DNA from: an uncultured Clostridia bacterium
GTDB lineage: Bacteria; Bacillota; Clostridia; Oscillospirales; Butyricicoccaceae
Reading direction: 5' to 3'
DNA length: 39,587 nucleotides
Assembly (NCBI GenBank): GCA_947856675.1
Contig: CANUCM010000058.1
Span: 1 to 39,587, forward strand
The first letter of the stretch is position 1. Each line of letters starts with the position of its first letter. The position numbers were made by a program, and so were the translations under genes. The notes below the pieces were generated by a model. It had not been told where the DNA came from. It did no database searches and saw only the letters and a list, made by a program, of their open reading frames with translations. Below are positions 17,544 through 27,439 of the stretch, in pieces.

Positions 17544-18770
17544 TTATCGGAGCGTGATGCGGTGGAAGGTTTTTTTGCCTTTGCGGATAATAAAATCGCC
17601 GCTGCGGATATCATCGGGGGTAAAAGCCTGCATGGGTGAGGCGATTTTGTTTTCTCCCACAAACACGCCGCCCTGATCCACAAGGCGCCGGCCATCTCCC
17701 TTGGAAGAAATCAGGCCTGCTTTCAGCATGAGGTCGAGAATGGTGAGGCTGCCGGAAGCAAAGTCGCTTTCGTACAGCTCAGTGGTGGGAACGTTGCTCA
17801 AATCAGAAGATCCGCCGAACAGAGCCTGGCTGGCCTGGCGTGCCTTTTCTGCTTCTTCCCCGCCGTGCACCAGCGTGGTCAGCTCAAGAGCCAAAATCTC
17901 TTTGGCCCGGTTGAGCTGACTTCCCTGCCACTGCTCCATGGCGGCAATTTCATCCAGCGGCACATCGGTCAGCATGCGCAGGCAGCGGATGACATCGGCA
18001 TCATCCACATTGCGCCAGTACTGGTAAAAATCGTACGGGCTGGTTTTTTCGGGATCAAGCCACACGGCACCCGCCTGGGTTTTGCCCATTTTTTTGCCTT
18101 CGGAAGTAAGCAGCAGCGTAATGGTCAGGCCGTAGGCATTTTTCCCCAGCTTTCTGCGGATGAGCTCGGTGCCGCCGAGGATGTTGGACCATTGATCATC
18201 GCCGCCGCACTGCAGGTTGCAGCCCACCGTCTGAAACATGTGGTAAAAGTCATAGCTCTGCATGATCATATAGTTAAACTCAAGGAAAGACAGCCCTTTT
18301 TCCATGCGCTGCTTATAACATTCGGCTCGCAGCATGTTGTTGACGGAAAAGCAGGCGCCTACCTCGCGGAGAAGCTCCACGTAATTGAGCTTTAAAAGCC
18401 AGTCAGCATTGTTCAGCATCAGGGCCCTGCCCTCAGAAAAGTCAATAAACTTGCTCATCTGGACCTTAAAGCGTTCACAGTTGTGGCGGATGGTTTCCAC
18501 GCTCATCACCTGCCGCATATCCGTACGGCCGGAAGGGTCGCCGACCATGCCGGTTCCCCCGCCAATCAGAGCGATGGGGCGGTTGCCGGCGCGCTGCATG
18601 CGCCGCATGAGGTTCAGCGCCATAAAATGCCCGACATGCAGGGAGTCGGCGGTAGGGTCGAATCCAATATAGAACGTGGCCTTGCCATTGTTGATGAGTT
18701 CTTTGATTTCCTCTTCATCCGTTACCTGCGCGATAAGCCCGCGGGCCTGCAGTTCTTCGTACAGCGTCAT
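17544..18770 (-). CDS. tyrS: Tyrosyl-tRNA synthetase
   Basis: FYIGFDPTADSLHVGHFMALNLMRRMQ...DFYHMFQTVGCNLQCGGDDQWSNI...KMGKTQAGAVWLD; C-terminal S4-like domain. Confidence 0.97.
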   Translation of the reverse strand: MTLYEELQARGLIAQVTDEEEIKELINNGKATFYIGFDPTADSLHVGHFMALNLMRRMQRAGNRPIALIGGGTGMVGDPSGRTDMRQVMSVETIRHNCERFKVQMSKFIDFSEGRALMLNNADWLLKLNYVELLREVGACFSVNNMLRAECYKQRMEKGLSFLEFNYMIMQSYDFYHMFQTVGCNLQCGGDDQWSNILGGTELIRRKLGKNAYGLTITLLLTSEGKKMGKTQAGAVWLDPEKTSPYDFYQYWRNVDDADVIRCLRMLTDVPLDEIAAMEQWQGSQLNRAKEILALELTTLVHGGEEAEKARQASQALFGGSSDLSNVPTTELYESDFASGSLTILDLMLKAGLISSKGDGRRLVDQGGVFVGENKIASPMQAFTPDDIRSGDFIIRKGKKTFHRITLR

Positions 18771-18795: not shown

Positions 18796-19068
18796 AAACA
18801 AAGCCCCCTGCGTACAGGACGCAGAGGGCGAAAAATCGCGGTACCACCTCAGTTTGCACGCCAAATCACTTTGGCTGCCTCATGAAGCACAATCATGCTT
18901 CTGCGCTGTAACGGGCGCGCCCGTGGTCTCCTACCACCGAAGATCGGCTTCAAAAACCCTGCTCACAAAGGTATTTCACGGGGCGGCTTTACCCGCTTTC
19001 ACCGGCCGCGGGCTCTCTGAAAAACCGTATTCCGCTACTTCTTTTGTTCATCGCGTTTTTCGTATAAC
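18796..19068 (-). promoter_or_regulatory. T-box leader (Tyr) upstream of tyrS
   Basis: - strand contains AGGTGGTACCGCG (18837-18849), terminator GCCCTCTGCGT...ACGCAGGGGGC-TTTGTTT (18803-18829), and UAC specifier in GTGAAATACCTTTGTGAGC (codon at 18971-18973). Confidence 0.93.
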
Positions 19069-22151: not shown

Positions 22152-22952
22152 CTATAACCACCTCGCGTTTTCATGCGCCGCCCGTACCACACTGCAAACG
22201 TCCGGCATGCAGTCCTGATTGCGCATACGGAGCTGAGCGAGAAATTCAATGTTGCCCTCCGGGCCTTTAATGGGAGAATAGGTCAGTCCGCAAACAGAAA
22301 AGCCGATATTCCTTGCGGCGCTGAGCACCGTTTCAATGACTTCGATATGGGTTTCCGGTTCACGGACAACGCCTTTTTTGCCTACTTTTTCCCGGCCGGC
22401 CTCGAATTGCGGTTTAATTAAGGTCAGCATTTGTCCGTCCGGTTTCAGAAAACGGTATGCCACGGGCAAGACAAGCCGAAGGGAAATAAAGGAAACGTCG
22501 CAAACGGCAAGATCCAGCTGTTCGGGGATCTGTTCCTCTGTCACATAACGGATGTTTGTCCGTTCCAGGCAAATGACGCGCGGATCACTTCGCACGCTCC
22601 AGGCAAGCTGCCCATACCCGACGTCTACGGCATAAACTTTTGCTATGCCGCGCTGCAGAAGGCAGTCACTGAATCCGCCGGTGGACGCGCCTATGTCCAT
22701 GGCTGTCAGCCCGCAGGGGTCAACGCCGAAGGTGTCGAGCGCCTTTTCCAGCTTCAGGCCGCCCCGGCTGACATATTTCAGGCCGCCACGCACCTCAATC
22801 AAATCGTCGGGGGCGCACAACAGGCCGGCTTTGTCAGCTTTTTGATGGTTGACATAGACCACCCCGCTCATAATCACGGCTTTGGCCCGTTCGCGGCTGC
22901 TTTGCAGTCCGCGCTCTACCAACACTACATCCAGTCGCTTTTTATCACTCAA
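22152..22952 (-). CDS. tlyA: TlyA family rRNA 2'-O-methyltransferase/hemolysin-like
   Basis: S4 domain KKRLDVVLVERGLQSSRERAKAVIMSGVVYVN; GGLKLEKALDTFGVDPCGLTAMDIGASTGGFSDCLLQRG. Likely TTG start overlapping the dxs stop. Confidence 0.93.
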   Translation of the reverse strand: MSDKKRLDVVLVERGLQSSRERAKAVIMSGVVYVNHQKADKAGLLCAPDDLIEVRGGLKYVSRGGLKLEKALDTFGVDPCGLTAMDIGASTGGFSDCLLQRGIAKVYAVDVGYGQLAWSVRSDPRVICLERTNIRYVTEEQIPEQLDLAVCDVSFISLRLVLPVAYRFLKPDGQMLTLIKPQFEAGREKVGKKGVVREPETHIEVIETVLSAARNIGFSVCGLTYSPIKGPEGNIEFLAQLRMRNQDCMPDVCSVVRAAHENARWL

Positions 22953-24810
22953 CGCCAATACCCTCCTGTGCGGCAGCTGCAATGGCGTTGCCGTCAATCC
23001 CGCAGCGTTGGTACAGCTCGCTGACCTTGCCTTCGCGCACAAACTCGGCCTTTAAATTGATGAGCCGGCAAAATCCCGGGCAAGCCTGGGCTGCGCCCAG
23101 CCGCGCGGCAATTTTCTCCCCCATTCCGCCGGCCTGGATACAGTCTTCTGCAACAATCAGCCGGCCGGTTTTTTGTACGGAGTGAAGAAGGACAGAAAAA
23201 TCATAATCTGTCAAGCTGTTTAGCTTTACGACCTCCGCCGATATTTCCTTACAGGCCAGCTTATCTGCGGCGCTCAATGCTTCGTTGATCATAATGCCAT
23301 AGGAAACAATGGTAATATCTGTTCCAGGTCGGAGAACGGAAATGCTGCGATCAAAGGTGTCTTCGCGCATTTCGCGTTCGCTGCCGCGGGGATAACGAAT
23401 GGCAACCGGAGAATCAAAATCATACAAAGCCTGCCGCAAAGCGCTTTGCAGCTCGGCATGGTTGGAAGGGGCCAGGACGGATATGTTGGGGATACCGGTC
23501 AGAAAGGAAACGTCAAAGACGCCTTGGTGGGTCTGGCCGTCTTCTCCCACAAGGCCTGCGCGATCCACGGCCAGAACCAGATGCGGCTTTTGAAGGGCGA
23601 CGTCGTGGATCAGCTGGTCATAGGCGCGCTGCAAAAATGTAGAATATATGGCGCACACAGGGAGCATGCCTCCGGCGGCAAGGCCGGAAGACATGGTAAC
23701 GGCGTGTTCTTCCGCAATGCCGACATCAAAAAAACGCTCTGGAAACTTTGCTGCGAAACCGGAAAGTCCGGTCCCGGCTTCCATGGCAGCGGTTACGGCG
23801 CAAATTTTTGGATCGTCCAGGGCAAAGGCTGAAAGCGAGGCGCCAAAGACGTCAGAAAACCCGATGCTGCTTTGTTTGCGGGGCTGTCCGGAAACCACAT
23901 CAAAAGCAGAAACGCCGTGAAAACGGTCCGGGCGGGCTTCAGAGCGAAAATATCCTTTGCCCTTGACGGTTTTCAGATGCACCACGACGGGGCGGCGCAG
24001 GTTTTTGGCCTCGTGCAGAAGGTCGCAGACAGCGGATATGTTGTTGCCGTCGGCAGGCCCAAGGTACCGAAAGCCCATGATCTCAAAGATGCTCTCTTTC
24101 AGAAGGGCGACTTTGATGCGGTTTTTCATGGCAGAAATCCAGCGAATCACTTTTTCACCGTTGGAAAAACGGCACAAAAAATGTTTGGCTTTCCACTTTA
24201 ATTTAAAATATCCCGGCTTGCTGCGCATGGTGGACAAACGCTTGGCCAGGGCGCCGACATTTTTGCCAATGGACATTTCGTTGTCGTTAAAGACGATGAT
24301 AAGCGGTTCGCGGGACTGTCCGGCGTCGTTCAGCGCTTCATATGCCATTCCGCCGGTCAGGGCTCCGTCACCGATAACACATACGGTGGCGCAGTCTTCT
24401 CTGTTCAGCCTGCTGGCACGTGCCATGCCCAGTGCTGCGGAGATGGAATTGGAAGCGTGCCCGGAGATAAAGCAGTCGTGCTCACTTTCTTCCGGGCGGA
24501 GAAAGCCGCTCAGGCCGTCAAGCTGCCGCAGGGAAAAAAAGTCCTTTTTGCGGCCGGTCAGGATTTTGTGTGTGTAGCACTGATGGCCCACATCAAAGAG
24601 AATGTGGTCATGGGGTGAAGAAAAAACACGGTGCAGGCCCACGCTGATTTCCACTGCACCCAAATTGGCCGACAAATGGCCGCCTGTTTTTGAAACGCTC
24701 TCTATTAAAAACTCCCGTATTTCCGAGCAAAGCTCGGGGAGAAGCGCCTGGCTGAGACGCTTGAGATCTTCCGGGCTGTTGATTTGATCCAATATGGGAG
24801 TGTTTGCCAT
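22945..24810 (-). CDS. dxs: 1-deoxy-D-xylulose-5-phosphate synthase
   Basis: LSANLGAVEISVGLHRVFSSPHDHILFDVGHQCYTHKILTGR, GDGALTGGMAYEALN, transketolase C-terminal domain. Confidence 0.97.
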   Translation of the reverse strand: MANTPILDQINSPEDLKRLSQALLPELCSEIREFLIESVSKTGGHLSANLGAVEISVGLHRVFSSPHDHILFDVGHQCYTHKILTGRKKDFFSLRQLDGLSGFLRPEESEHDCFISGHASNSISAALGMARASRLNREDCATVCVIGDGALTGGMAYEALNDAGQSREPLIIVFNDNEMSIGKNVGALAKRLSTMRSKPGYFKLKWKAKHFLCRFSNGEKVIRWISAMKNRIKVALLKESIFEIMGFRYLGPADGNNISAVCDLLHEAKNLRRPVVVHLKTVKGKGYFRSEARPDRFHGVSAFDVVSGQPRKQSSIGFSDVFGASLSAFALDDPKICAVTAAMEAGTGLSGFAAKFPERFFDVGIAEEHAVTMSSGLAAGGMLPVCAIYSTFLQRAYDQLIHDVALQKPHLVLAVDRAGLVGEDGQTHQGVFDVSFLTGIPNISVLAPSNHAELQSALRQALYDFDSPVAIRYPRGSEREMREDTFDRSISVLRPGTDITIVSYGIMINEALSAADKLACKEISAEVVKLNSLTDYDFSVLLHSVQKTGRLIVAEDCIQAGGMGEKIAARLGAAQACPGFCRLINLKAEFVREGKVSELYQRCGIDGNAIAAAAQEGIGVE

Positions 24811-24814
24811 AGAA

Positions 24815-25414
24815 TCAACCTCCCCTGCCGATGATTTTTTTGAAAAAGTAAATGACGCGGCCGGCGGCGAACACGACAGAATCGCTGCGGCGGACAGCGA
24901 CGGCCTTGCCGGCGGCTTTTCCGCCGATGGTGGCCGCTGCGATAATTCCGGTGACGGTCAGCGGAGCAAAAACCGGGTGCAGGTTGGTGGAGGACACAAT
25001 TTCCCCGGTAATAAGGGCTCCGGTTGTACCGCTCATGATGCCGCAGATATCGCCGATGACATCGTTGCAAAAGCTGGATACTTTTTCGGCGTTTTTGATA
25101 AGCCAGATGCTTTCGCGGGCGCCGCGGACTTTCCGTGATGCCATGGAATTGAAGGTTTTCAGTTCGGCAGAAGTCGTGGCGACGCCAATGATATCGAACA
25201 AAACGCCGAGCATGACAAAAAAACACAGCACGCTCAGCGTAATATAAATATTGGCGTCATTCAAAGCGGCGGAAGATCCGTAAGAAAATACAACGGACAG
25301 CAAAAAACTGGCAAGCACCATGGTTAAAACAAAACGACCATGATGTCTGCGGCGGGGTTTCCCCGGATGTTTTCGGCTGTGGCCGGATTTATTTTGCGGT
25401 TCGGTGCTACAGAT
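24815..25414 (-). CDS. oapA: OLE-associated membrane protein OapA (CNNM/DUF21-like); probable AUC start
   Basis: Short multi-TM protein directly 3' of the structured RNA and upstream of dxs. ORF from ATG 25321 lacks an SD; the frame stays open upstream to ATC at 25414, preceded by GGAGGAGATCCT. Confidence 0.8.
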   Translation of the reverse strand: MCSTEPQNKSGHSRKHPGKPRRRHHGRFVLTMVLASFLLSVVFSYGSSAALNDANIYITLSVLCFFVMLGVLFDIIGVATTSAELKTFNSMASRKVRGARESIWLIKNAEKVSSFCNDVIGDICGIMSGTTGALITGEIVSSTNLHPVFAPLTVTGIIAAATIGGKAAGKAVAVRRSDSVVFAAGRVIYFFKKIIGRGG

Positions 25415-25436
25415 AGGATCTCCTCCCAGTTGTCAT

Positions 25437-26045
25437 AAAAAAATGTGGCAGCAGGCAAAGTAAATCTTGCGGCTTAGGTTCGGTTGGATTTCCCCCACGT
25501 CTGCCGCTCGTCGCCGATACGGCGGTTTCCCATTAAAGCCGAGGCCGTGCCGTCGCCGGACACGGTACCGAATTGCCACTTAGTCCGCACTGCAATCCCT
25601 TGCCTGCCAACAAGTACAGCCTAGATGTTTTCCATAACAGGTCAGCCGTTTCTTAGTCTCTTTTGCAAACACGGTTTCAAAAAGCAATAGTGCCTTTAAA
25701 GCGGCCGCGATAAAGGCAGGTAGGTCTTTTATTCGCCGTGTTCACTCAAGGCAGGCTACATCTGCACGCAGCAGGGGTCTTCCCCACCACTTTGCAGGTT
25801 TAACCCTGCCCCGTAAAAACTCCGATCAACCGAAACGGTGTTTAGGGTTTCCACAGCAGCAGGTCTCCACAGAAACAGGGTCACATCCGCATGCCATTGC
25901 GGGGCGCCCTGAAACCTTAACCCCCAGCATCCACCCCAATCTGGGCGAGAGAAGCAAACACCAGGGACTTCATCGATATGCCCTTCGACGGATTTTTAGG
26001 CCCGTCCTGGGAAACGGAGACTCTGACTAGGATACTGCGCCACAT
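25437..26045 (-). ncRNA. OLE (ornate large extremophilic) RNA
   Basis: ~600-nt non-coding interval with its own promoter, many nested helices (GNRA-capped hairpin at 25545-25565; nested helix 25668-25674/25736-25742 enclosing hairpin 25691-25718; 3'-domain closing helix ~25447-25460/25598-25608). Located between ispA/PAP2 and oapA-dxs, the described OLE synteny. Confidence 0.85.
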
Positions 26046-26050
26046 TGTTT

Positions 26051-26078
26051 ATTATAGCATAAGCTGTATAAATATCAA
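26051..26078 (-). promoter_or_regulatory. Sigma-A-like promoter of the OLE RNA
   Basis: - strand TTGATA (26078-26073), 16-nt spacer, TATAAT (26056-26051). Confidence 0.75.
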
Positions 26079-26104
26079 GCGGAGTATAATATTTGATAAA
26101 AAAT

Positions 26105-26539
26105 TCATAAAAGCAAACCCAGCACCAGCCCTACAAGGGCGCCGGCCAGGACTTCAAACGGAGTGTGACCCACAAGCTCTTTAAGGTCTTTTTGAAAAAT
26201 ATCCGGAGGGGTTTCGCGCCAGTGATCCATAATATAGTTTAAAATCACGGCCTGGCGTCCTGTTTCAAGGCGTACGCCGGAGGCATCATACATTACGATG
26301 ACGGCAAGCACAGCCATAATGGCAAACTGCGGAGACGTAGTGCCGCACACTTTGCCCACTGCAACGAGGGCGCCGATCACCGTGGAAGTGTGAGAAGAAG
26401 GAAGCCCGCCCGAAGAAAAAAACATACGCAGGCGTATGCGGTGTGTTTTGCAATAATGCGTCAGGATTTTAAGAGCCTGGGCCGAAAACCAGCACACCAG
26501 TGCGACGTCAATAATATAATTTCCCGTGAGAAAGCTGTT
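26105..26539 (-). CDS. Divergent PAP2 family protein (DUF212)
   Basis: MNSFLTGNYIIDVALVCWFSAQALKILTHYC...FFSSGGLPSSHTSTVIGAL...YDASGVRLETGRQA...LKELVGHTPFEVLAGALVG. Confidence 0.92.
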   Translation of the reverse strand, partial: NSFLTGNYIIDVALVCWFSAQALKILTHYCKTHRIRLRMFFSSGGLPSSHTSTVIGALVAVGKVCGTTSPQFAIMAVLAVIVMYDASGVRLETGRQAVILNYIMDHWRETPPDIFQKDLKELVGHTPFEVLAGALVGLVLGLLL

Positions 26540-26554
26540 CATGCGCACCGCCTT

Positions 26555-27439
26555 TCAATGGGTGCGGCCGGCCAGCCAGCTCGCCAGTTCACAGAGAAAA
26601 TCGTGGTCTTCAAACTGCTTTGCGGCGCAGAGTGCCTCTTTTGTCAGCTCGTCGATTTTCCGGCGGCAGCCTTCCAGCCCCAGTGCGGTGACATAGGTAA
26701 TTTTTCCGTCGCGCGCATCGCTGCCGGTGGTTTTGCCCAGGACCTGTTCACTGCCCTCCACGTCGAGCACATCGTCCCTGATTTGAAACGCCAGACCGAC
26801 GCTGCGGGCGTATGTCTCGGCCGCCTGGCACAAAATATCCGGCGCGCCGGCCAGAAGACAGCCGCCGACACACGCGGCTGAAAGCAGAGCGCCGGTTTTG
26901 AGCGCTACCATTTCGGCAAGATATTTGCTTTCGAGCGCCCCTTCTTCCATCTGCAAATCCATGGTTTGCCCGCCTATCATGCCGTAAATCCCCGCGCAGC
27001 GGGAAATATATGCAAGAGCTCTGGCTGCATCGTGCGGAGATTTTGTATCGCACAGGGCCTGTCCCATAACCTCGTAAGCGCGGTTTAACAGGGCATCACC
27101 GGCCAACAGCGCGGTCCATTCCCCAAAGGCTTTGTGGCAGGTCAGGCGCCCGCGCCGCAAATCGTCATCATCCATACAGGGCAAATCGTCGTGAATCAGC
27201 GAATAGGTGTGGATCATTTCAAGCGCGCAGGCAAACGGGAGCGCCTGTTCGGCGCTGCCGCCGCACAGACGGCAAAATTCCATCAAAAGCGCAGGGCGCA
27301 GGCGTTTTCCGCCCCCCAAAAGGCTGTATCGCGCGGCCTCTGCAGTGCGCTGCTGAGGGAGGGTTTCCAGGGGAAAGTAGCCGTTCAGCGCACGTTCAGT
27401 CAGTTGCGCGTATTCAGAAAGCTTTTCTGTTGCGGTCAT
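26555..27439 (-). CDS. ispA: Geranyl/farnesyl diphosphate synthase
   Basis: LLGGGKRLRPALLMEFCRLCGG, first DDxxD IHDDLPCMDDDDLRRG, GGQTMDLQ, second QIRDDVLDVEG. Confidence 0.96.
   Translation of the reverse strand: MTATEKLSEYAQLTERALNGYFPLETLPQQRTAEAARYSLLGGGKRLRPALLMEFCRLCGGSAEQALPFACALEMIHTYSLIHDDLPCMDDDDLRRGRLTCHKAFGEWTALLAGDALLNRAYEVMGQALCDTKSPHDAARALAYISRCAGIYGMIGGQTMDLQMEEGALESKYLAEMVALKTGALLSAACVGGCLLAGAPDILCQAAETYARSVGLAFQIRDDVLDVEGSEQVLGKTTGSDARDGKITYVTALGLEGCRRKIDELTKEALCAAKQFEDHDFLCELASWLAGRTH

Follow-up and report, generated by a model that had tools for sequence, protein, structure and literature searches.

OLE is a bacterial stress RNA of about 600 bases that is known but poorly understood; few bacterial RNAs whose biochemical function is unknown are as large or as well conserved. 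The window analysed here, a stretch of 39,587 nucleotides from an uncultured member of the Butyricicoccaceae (Clostridia), contains about 600 nt that an initial annotation had described as free of any credible coding sequence and had assigned to an OLE RNA gene, naming a search with the OLE covariance model as the check. Two questions arise: is this interval a genuine OLE RNA gene, and where does translation of the adjacent gene for its protein partner OapA begin?

The OLE RNA gene and its surroundings

An Rfam scan of the whole window matched OLE (RF01071) to positions 25429–26059 of the reverse strand over the complete model (1–616), with 478.3 bits (E = 1.8e-137) against a gathering cut-off of 50. 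The feature is a genuine full-length OLE RNA gene, present as a single copy in the genome of the host MAG; since the whole model is matched, it belongs to the full-length class and not to the shortened variants 1 and 2 [PMC11332333]. The limits first proposed, 25437–26045, are about right and probably delimit the transcript (from ~26045 to 25437), the model limits being slightly wider. No credible open reading frame fills the interval; the single frame of at least 60 codons that overlaps it (25978–26184, forward strand, 68 aa) was judged mechanical.

The individual signals named in the initial annotation were recovered as well. The GCGA-capped (GNRA) hairpin CCGTGTCCGGCGACGGCACGG lies at 25565–25545 in the 3' domain, the hairpin TGCCTTTA...TAAAGGCA with its enclosing AACACGG/CCGTGTT helix and the closing helix GGCAGGCAAGG/CTTTGCCTGCTGCC all correspond to paired columns of the OLE model, and the U7 tract ends at 25437 within the 3'-terminal CCACATTTTTTT (25437–25448, reverse strand). 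The terminator scan found no simple hairpin followed by a U tract on the same strand at the OLE 3' end, because what precedes the U tract is the RNA's own long-range closing helix. Upstream, a promoter-like site (TTGATA-16-TATAAT, 26078–26051, reverse strand) agrees with the consensus in 11 of 12 positions and is the sole such site within 25300–26200; shuffled sequence yields 0.7 such sites on average, so that the match by itself says little.

The gene order nusB, xseA, xseB, ispA, DUF212, OLE, oapA, dxs, tlyA, nadK, argR, recN fits the published setting of OLE, as the initial annotation had anticipated (xseA and xseB were assigned by order and sequence resemblance only). On the reverse strand, ispA (polyprenyl synthetase, PF00348) occupies 26555–27439, the divergent PAP2 gene (DUF212, PF02681) 26105–26548 and dxs, likewise assigned by Pfam, 22945–24810. 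Apart from OLE, the only Rfam family detected in the whole-window scan was T-box: a leader scoring 123 bits at 18821–19060 (reverse strand), located directly upstream of a tyrS-like gene (17544–18770).

Pairing within the RNA was assessed by aligning 26 OLE sequences from the host family, transferring the model pairing from the row of the window and counting pairs. Changes on both sides were found in 82 of the 156 base pairs, and standard pairs occupied 87.9 % of the cells. In 500 shuffles the observed value was not attained for a single measure, and pairing fell to ~39–44 % when the partner strand was slid by 1–3 columns. The covariation is far beyond chance, no shuffled or slid control coming near it. 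The loop GCGGCCGC (25701–25708, reverse strand), with a palindromic GGCC invariant across all 26 sequences, falls where the OLE cryo-EM structure has the L9.3 kissing loop, which forms dimer bridge B3 [PMC12286853]. In its full model match, gene order, adjacent oapA, P7–P9 and P13 elements and GGCC dimer loop, the RNA resembles OLE of H. halodurans and C. acetobutylicum; it differs in coming from an uncultured Clostridia MAG of gut type, not from a classical extremophile, and in the start codon of oapA, which by sequence is probably AUC.

That the interval is some other structured RNA or merely a long oapA leader, as its place immediately ahead of oapA in the same orientation might suggest, can practically be dismissed, since the full OLE model is matched and no second family exceeds its threshold in the interval, and since in the related genus g10 (L019, L017, L095, L111) the usual ole-oapA tandem is broken, OLE remaining behind ispA while oapA lies with dxs ~20 kb away on the same contig (G050) or on a different contig (G036), which rules out the leader.

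OLE was found in 30 of the 61 sampled genomes and in 9 of the 15 genera of the host family; named relatives include an uncultured Clostridium MAG and Candidatus Pseudobutyricicoccus lothianensis, the latter from chicken. Within the host genus two of four genomes carry the RNA, which is therefore dispensable for the lineage. This patchiness, together with the small size of the host MAG (1.54 Mb, 84 % complete), would suit a copy that has decayed or lost its function in a reduced genome. Such decay is very improbable, given that all helices keep pairing (comparison with the sister locus L002 shows 7 pairs with both sides changed, 7 with a single side changed and 3 broken), that oapA is intact save for its unusual start and that OapC is present. 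With 2,822 OLE hits already counted in GTDB Bacillota [PMC11332333] and 8,585 non-redundant sequences gathered [PMC12286853], the OLE gene of the window adds a member and not a class. The earlier view of it as a useful extra data point is fair, yet the point is a modest one among thousands of known sequences, patchy as OLE is within one genus, and the start pattern of oapA matters more.

Three side observations concern distribution. Locus L100 (genome G010) has oapA and dxs without an adjacent OLE, none being found in the genome under stricter filters. At E <= 0.001, 292 of the 399 genomes sampled across the phylum have an OapA-type match, a larger share than published numbers of OLE would lead one to expect. 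The idea that the Mg2+ transporter MpfA takes the place of OLE in sister genomes devoid of the RNA was also considered, but a CNNM protein of ~420–475 aa occurs in six of six genomes, with or without OLE, and so does not discriminate.

OapA, its partners and the start of oapA

The gene following OLE had been expected to be oapA, and its identification holds on the basis of family and synteny. Its frame (24815–25414, reverse strand) matches the CNNM-type membrane domain PF01595 weakly (E = 5.9e-6, slightly under the Pfam cut-off), and its product shares 82 % and 59 % identity with the proteins encoded behind OLE in L002 and L006, respectively. Two invariant aspartates, four residues apart, are common to 14 diverse OapAs; from their identical spacing we infer that they correspond to D100/D104, which were mutated in the OapA of H. 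halodurans [PMC9723947].

A search for OapB and OapC, likewise suggested at the outset, succeeded for the latter in the host genome, where an OapC (YbxF, L7Ae-like) orthologue is encoded between rpoC and rpsL; its best PDB matches are YbxF and the B. subtilis-type L7Ae-like protein (E = 1.2e-12). OapB was not found in the host MAG, which is 84 % complete and misses infA and its region. A homologue of this KOW protein is encoded between map and infA in the sister genome G017, its sole PDB match being the structure of OLE-associated protein B (7k9b, E = 1.4e-6).

Between the last stop codon and the first membrane helix, the oapA frame of the window contains no ATG, GTG or TTG, and the only CTG of this stretch sits upstream of the Shine-Dalgarno sequence GGAGGAG (25420–25426, reverse strand). 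Oriented by this motif, translation appears to begin at a weak, non-canonical AUC (25412–25414, reverse strand), which would yield a protein of 199 aa retaining the basic N-terminal tail seen in relatives. The arrangement is kept in the sister L002 (GGAGGAG and ATC) and in L006 (GAGGTGA and ATC), the tail itself having diverged. An in-frame ATG of L002 precedes the Shine-Dalgarno sequence and has none of its own; in L001, L002 and L006 alike, the frame offers no standard start with a Shine-Dalgarno sequence, and a strong, well-spaced one stands before AUC.

If the AUC were coincidental, oapA would have to start internally at ATG 25321, the first standard start of its frame. This is unlikely: ATG 25321 has no preceding Shine-Dalgarno sequence, a start there would drop the basic N-terminal tail present in relatives, and motif and AUC are retained in L002 and L006 despite divergence of the tail. 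Local RNA folding gives no added support to the AUC start (z-score -1.28, not significant), and occlusion of the oapA start by local RNA structure was rejected on the same value.

Non-canonical start codons are classically exemplified by infC, and in the host genus this gene, too, has an apparent AUC start, behind AGGAGGTG. Two infC matches were found in the host MAG (contigs G000:C94 and G000:C19), which may reflect strain mixing or a second copy.

Start codons of oapA across order and phylum

The starts of oapA were surveyed across the order and the phylum with dxs and ispA from the same loci as controls, each gene being counted once. Among clear standard calls, UUG accounted for 113 of 191 oapA genes, 6 of 54 dxs genes and none of 25 ispA genes, relatedness among the genomes making the p-values of the larger comparisons optimistic; after thinning at 70 % identity, it still accounted for 48 of 92 oapA against 1 of 16 dxs genes (p = 7e-4). 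UUG is thus the commonest oapA start among the 191 confident standard calls. A bias of the start caller towards UUG is not indicated, because the same caller gives mostly ATG for dxs and ispA.

Further non-standard candidates came to light. In genus g20 of another family, AUU stands behind a strong Shine-Dalgarno sequence in L158, L140 and L148, the last having an additional ATG that directly abuts the motif; L228 carries AUC and L278 AUU. Altogether, AUU or AUC starts recur in three families beyond that of the host. Two other candidates were discarded, the one in L276 because it lies within the 3' end of OLE and the one in L103 because its frame seems shifted compared with L192. Genome G091 has two oapA-like genes on different contigs (L141/L194 and L148/L196), with a strong Shine-Dalgarno sequence and AUU in one only.

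Weak starts are apparently a wider habit of oapA that has so far gone unreported: no earlier report of the pattern was found in the literature on OLE RNA, the claim to novelty being provisional with OLE papers in subscription journals outside the scope of the search. Automated annotation will overlook the gene, or place its start wrongly, in genomes where it begins with AUC or AUU.

A possible translational restraint on OapA supply

In the published model, OLE has its own promoter, forms an RNA dimer, is bound by OapB and OapC, is localised to the membrane by OapA and plays a broad role in stress [PMC9723947, PMC11332333, PMC12265935, PMC12286853]. Transferred to the present locus, the RNA would be transcribed from its own promoter and fold into a dimer; OapC would bind its kink-turn and OapB P12.2/P13, as borrowed from work on H. 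halodurans and Clostridium; two or more OapA molecules would anchor it at the membrane; and the particle would tune responses to Mg2+, cold, alcohol and carbon-source stress. The amount of OapA would in part be set at translation by the pairing of a strong Shine-Dalgarno sequence with a weak start codon (AUC in this case, UUG in the majority of relatives), a combination expected to throttle synthesis at initiation and to keep OapA output low relative to the abundant RNA. We consider it highly probable that a full-length OLE gene, the published particle and an OapA amount partly set at translation together describe this locus.

OapA output may further depend on the stringency with which IF3 and bS21 control initiation. 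In its extended form, this proposal places oapA under a conserved restraint by weak, IF3-sensitive starts (UUG generally, AUC or AUU in several lineages), such that OapA supply and membrane assembly would report on initiation conditions; we regard it as tentative and rather doubtful. It would tie OLE to translation, given that OLE RNA contains a Shine-Dalgarno mimic to which the initiation protein bS21 binds [PMC12054373]. Precedents are Streptomyces sigR, a stress-response gene with an IF3-repressed GUC start on which the stoichiometry with its partner depends [PMC5472188], and S. aureus ccpN (AUA) and cvfC1 (AUU) [PMC13009471]. Like oapA, these genes and infC combine a strong Shine-Dalgarno sequence with a conserved non-canonical start; that of oapA differs in being deduced from sequence.

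Weak UUG starts are common in Clostridia, and the comparison made here is one with dxs and ispA. There is about an even chance that the weak starts merely mirror a low dosage need of a membrane protein and carry no regulatory meaning, even though dxs and ispA of the same loci mostly start with AUG and four families show recurrent AUC or AUU starts, which are otherwise rare. This passive explanation is at least as likely as throttling of OapA in response to IF3 or bS21. Should the oapA pattern hold, it would offer a cheap, testable handle on the protein supply of the OLE particle and a possible link to translation.

Downstream, the oapA stop codon is separated from the dxs start by a gap of 4 nt (24808–24817, reverse strand), and because of this short distance translation of dxs is perhaps coupled to that of the weakly started oapA.
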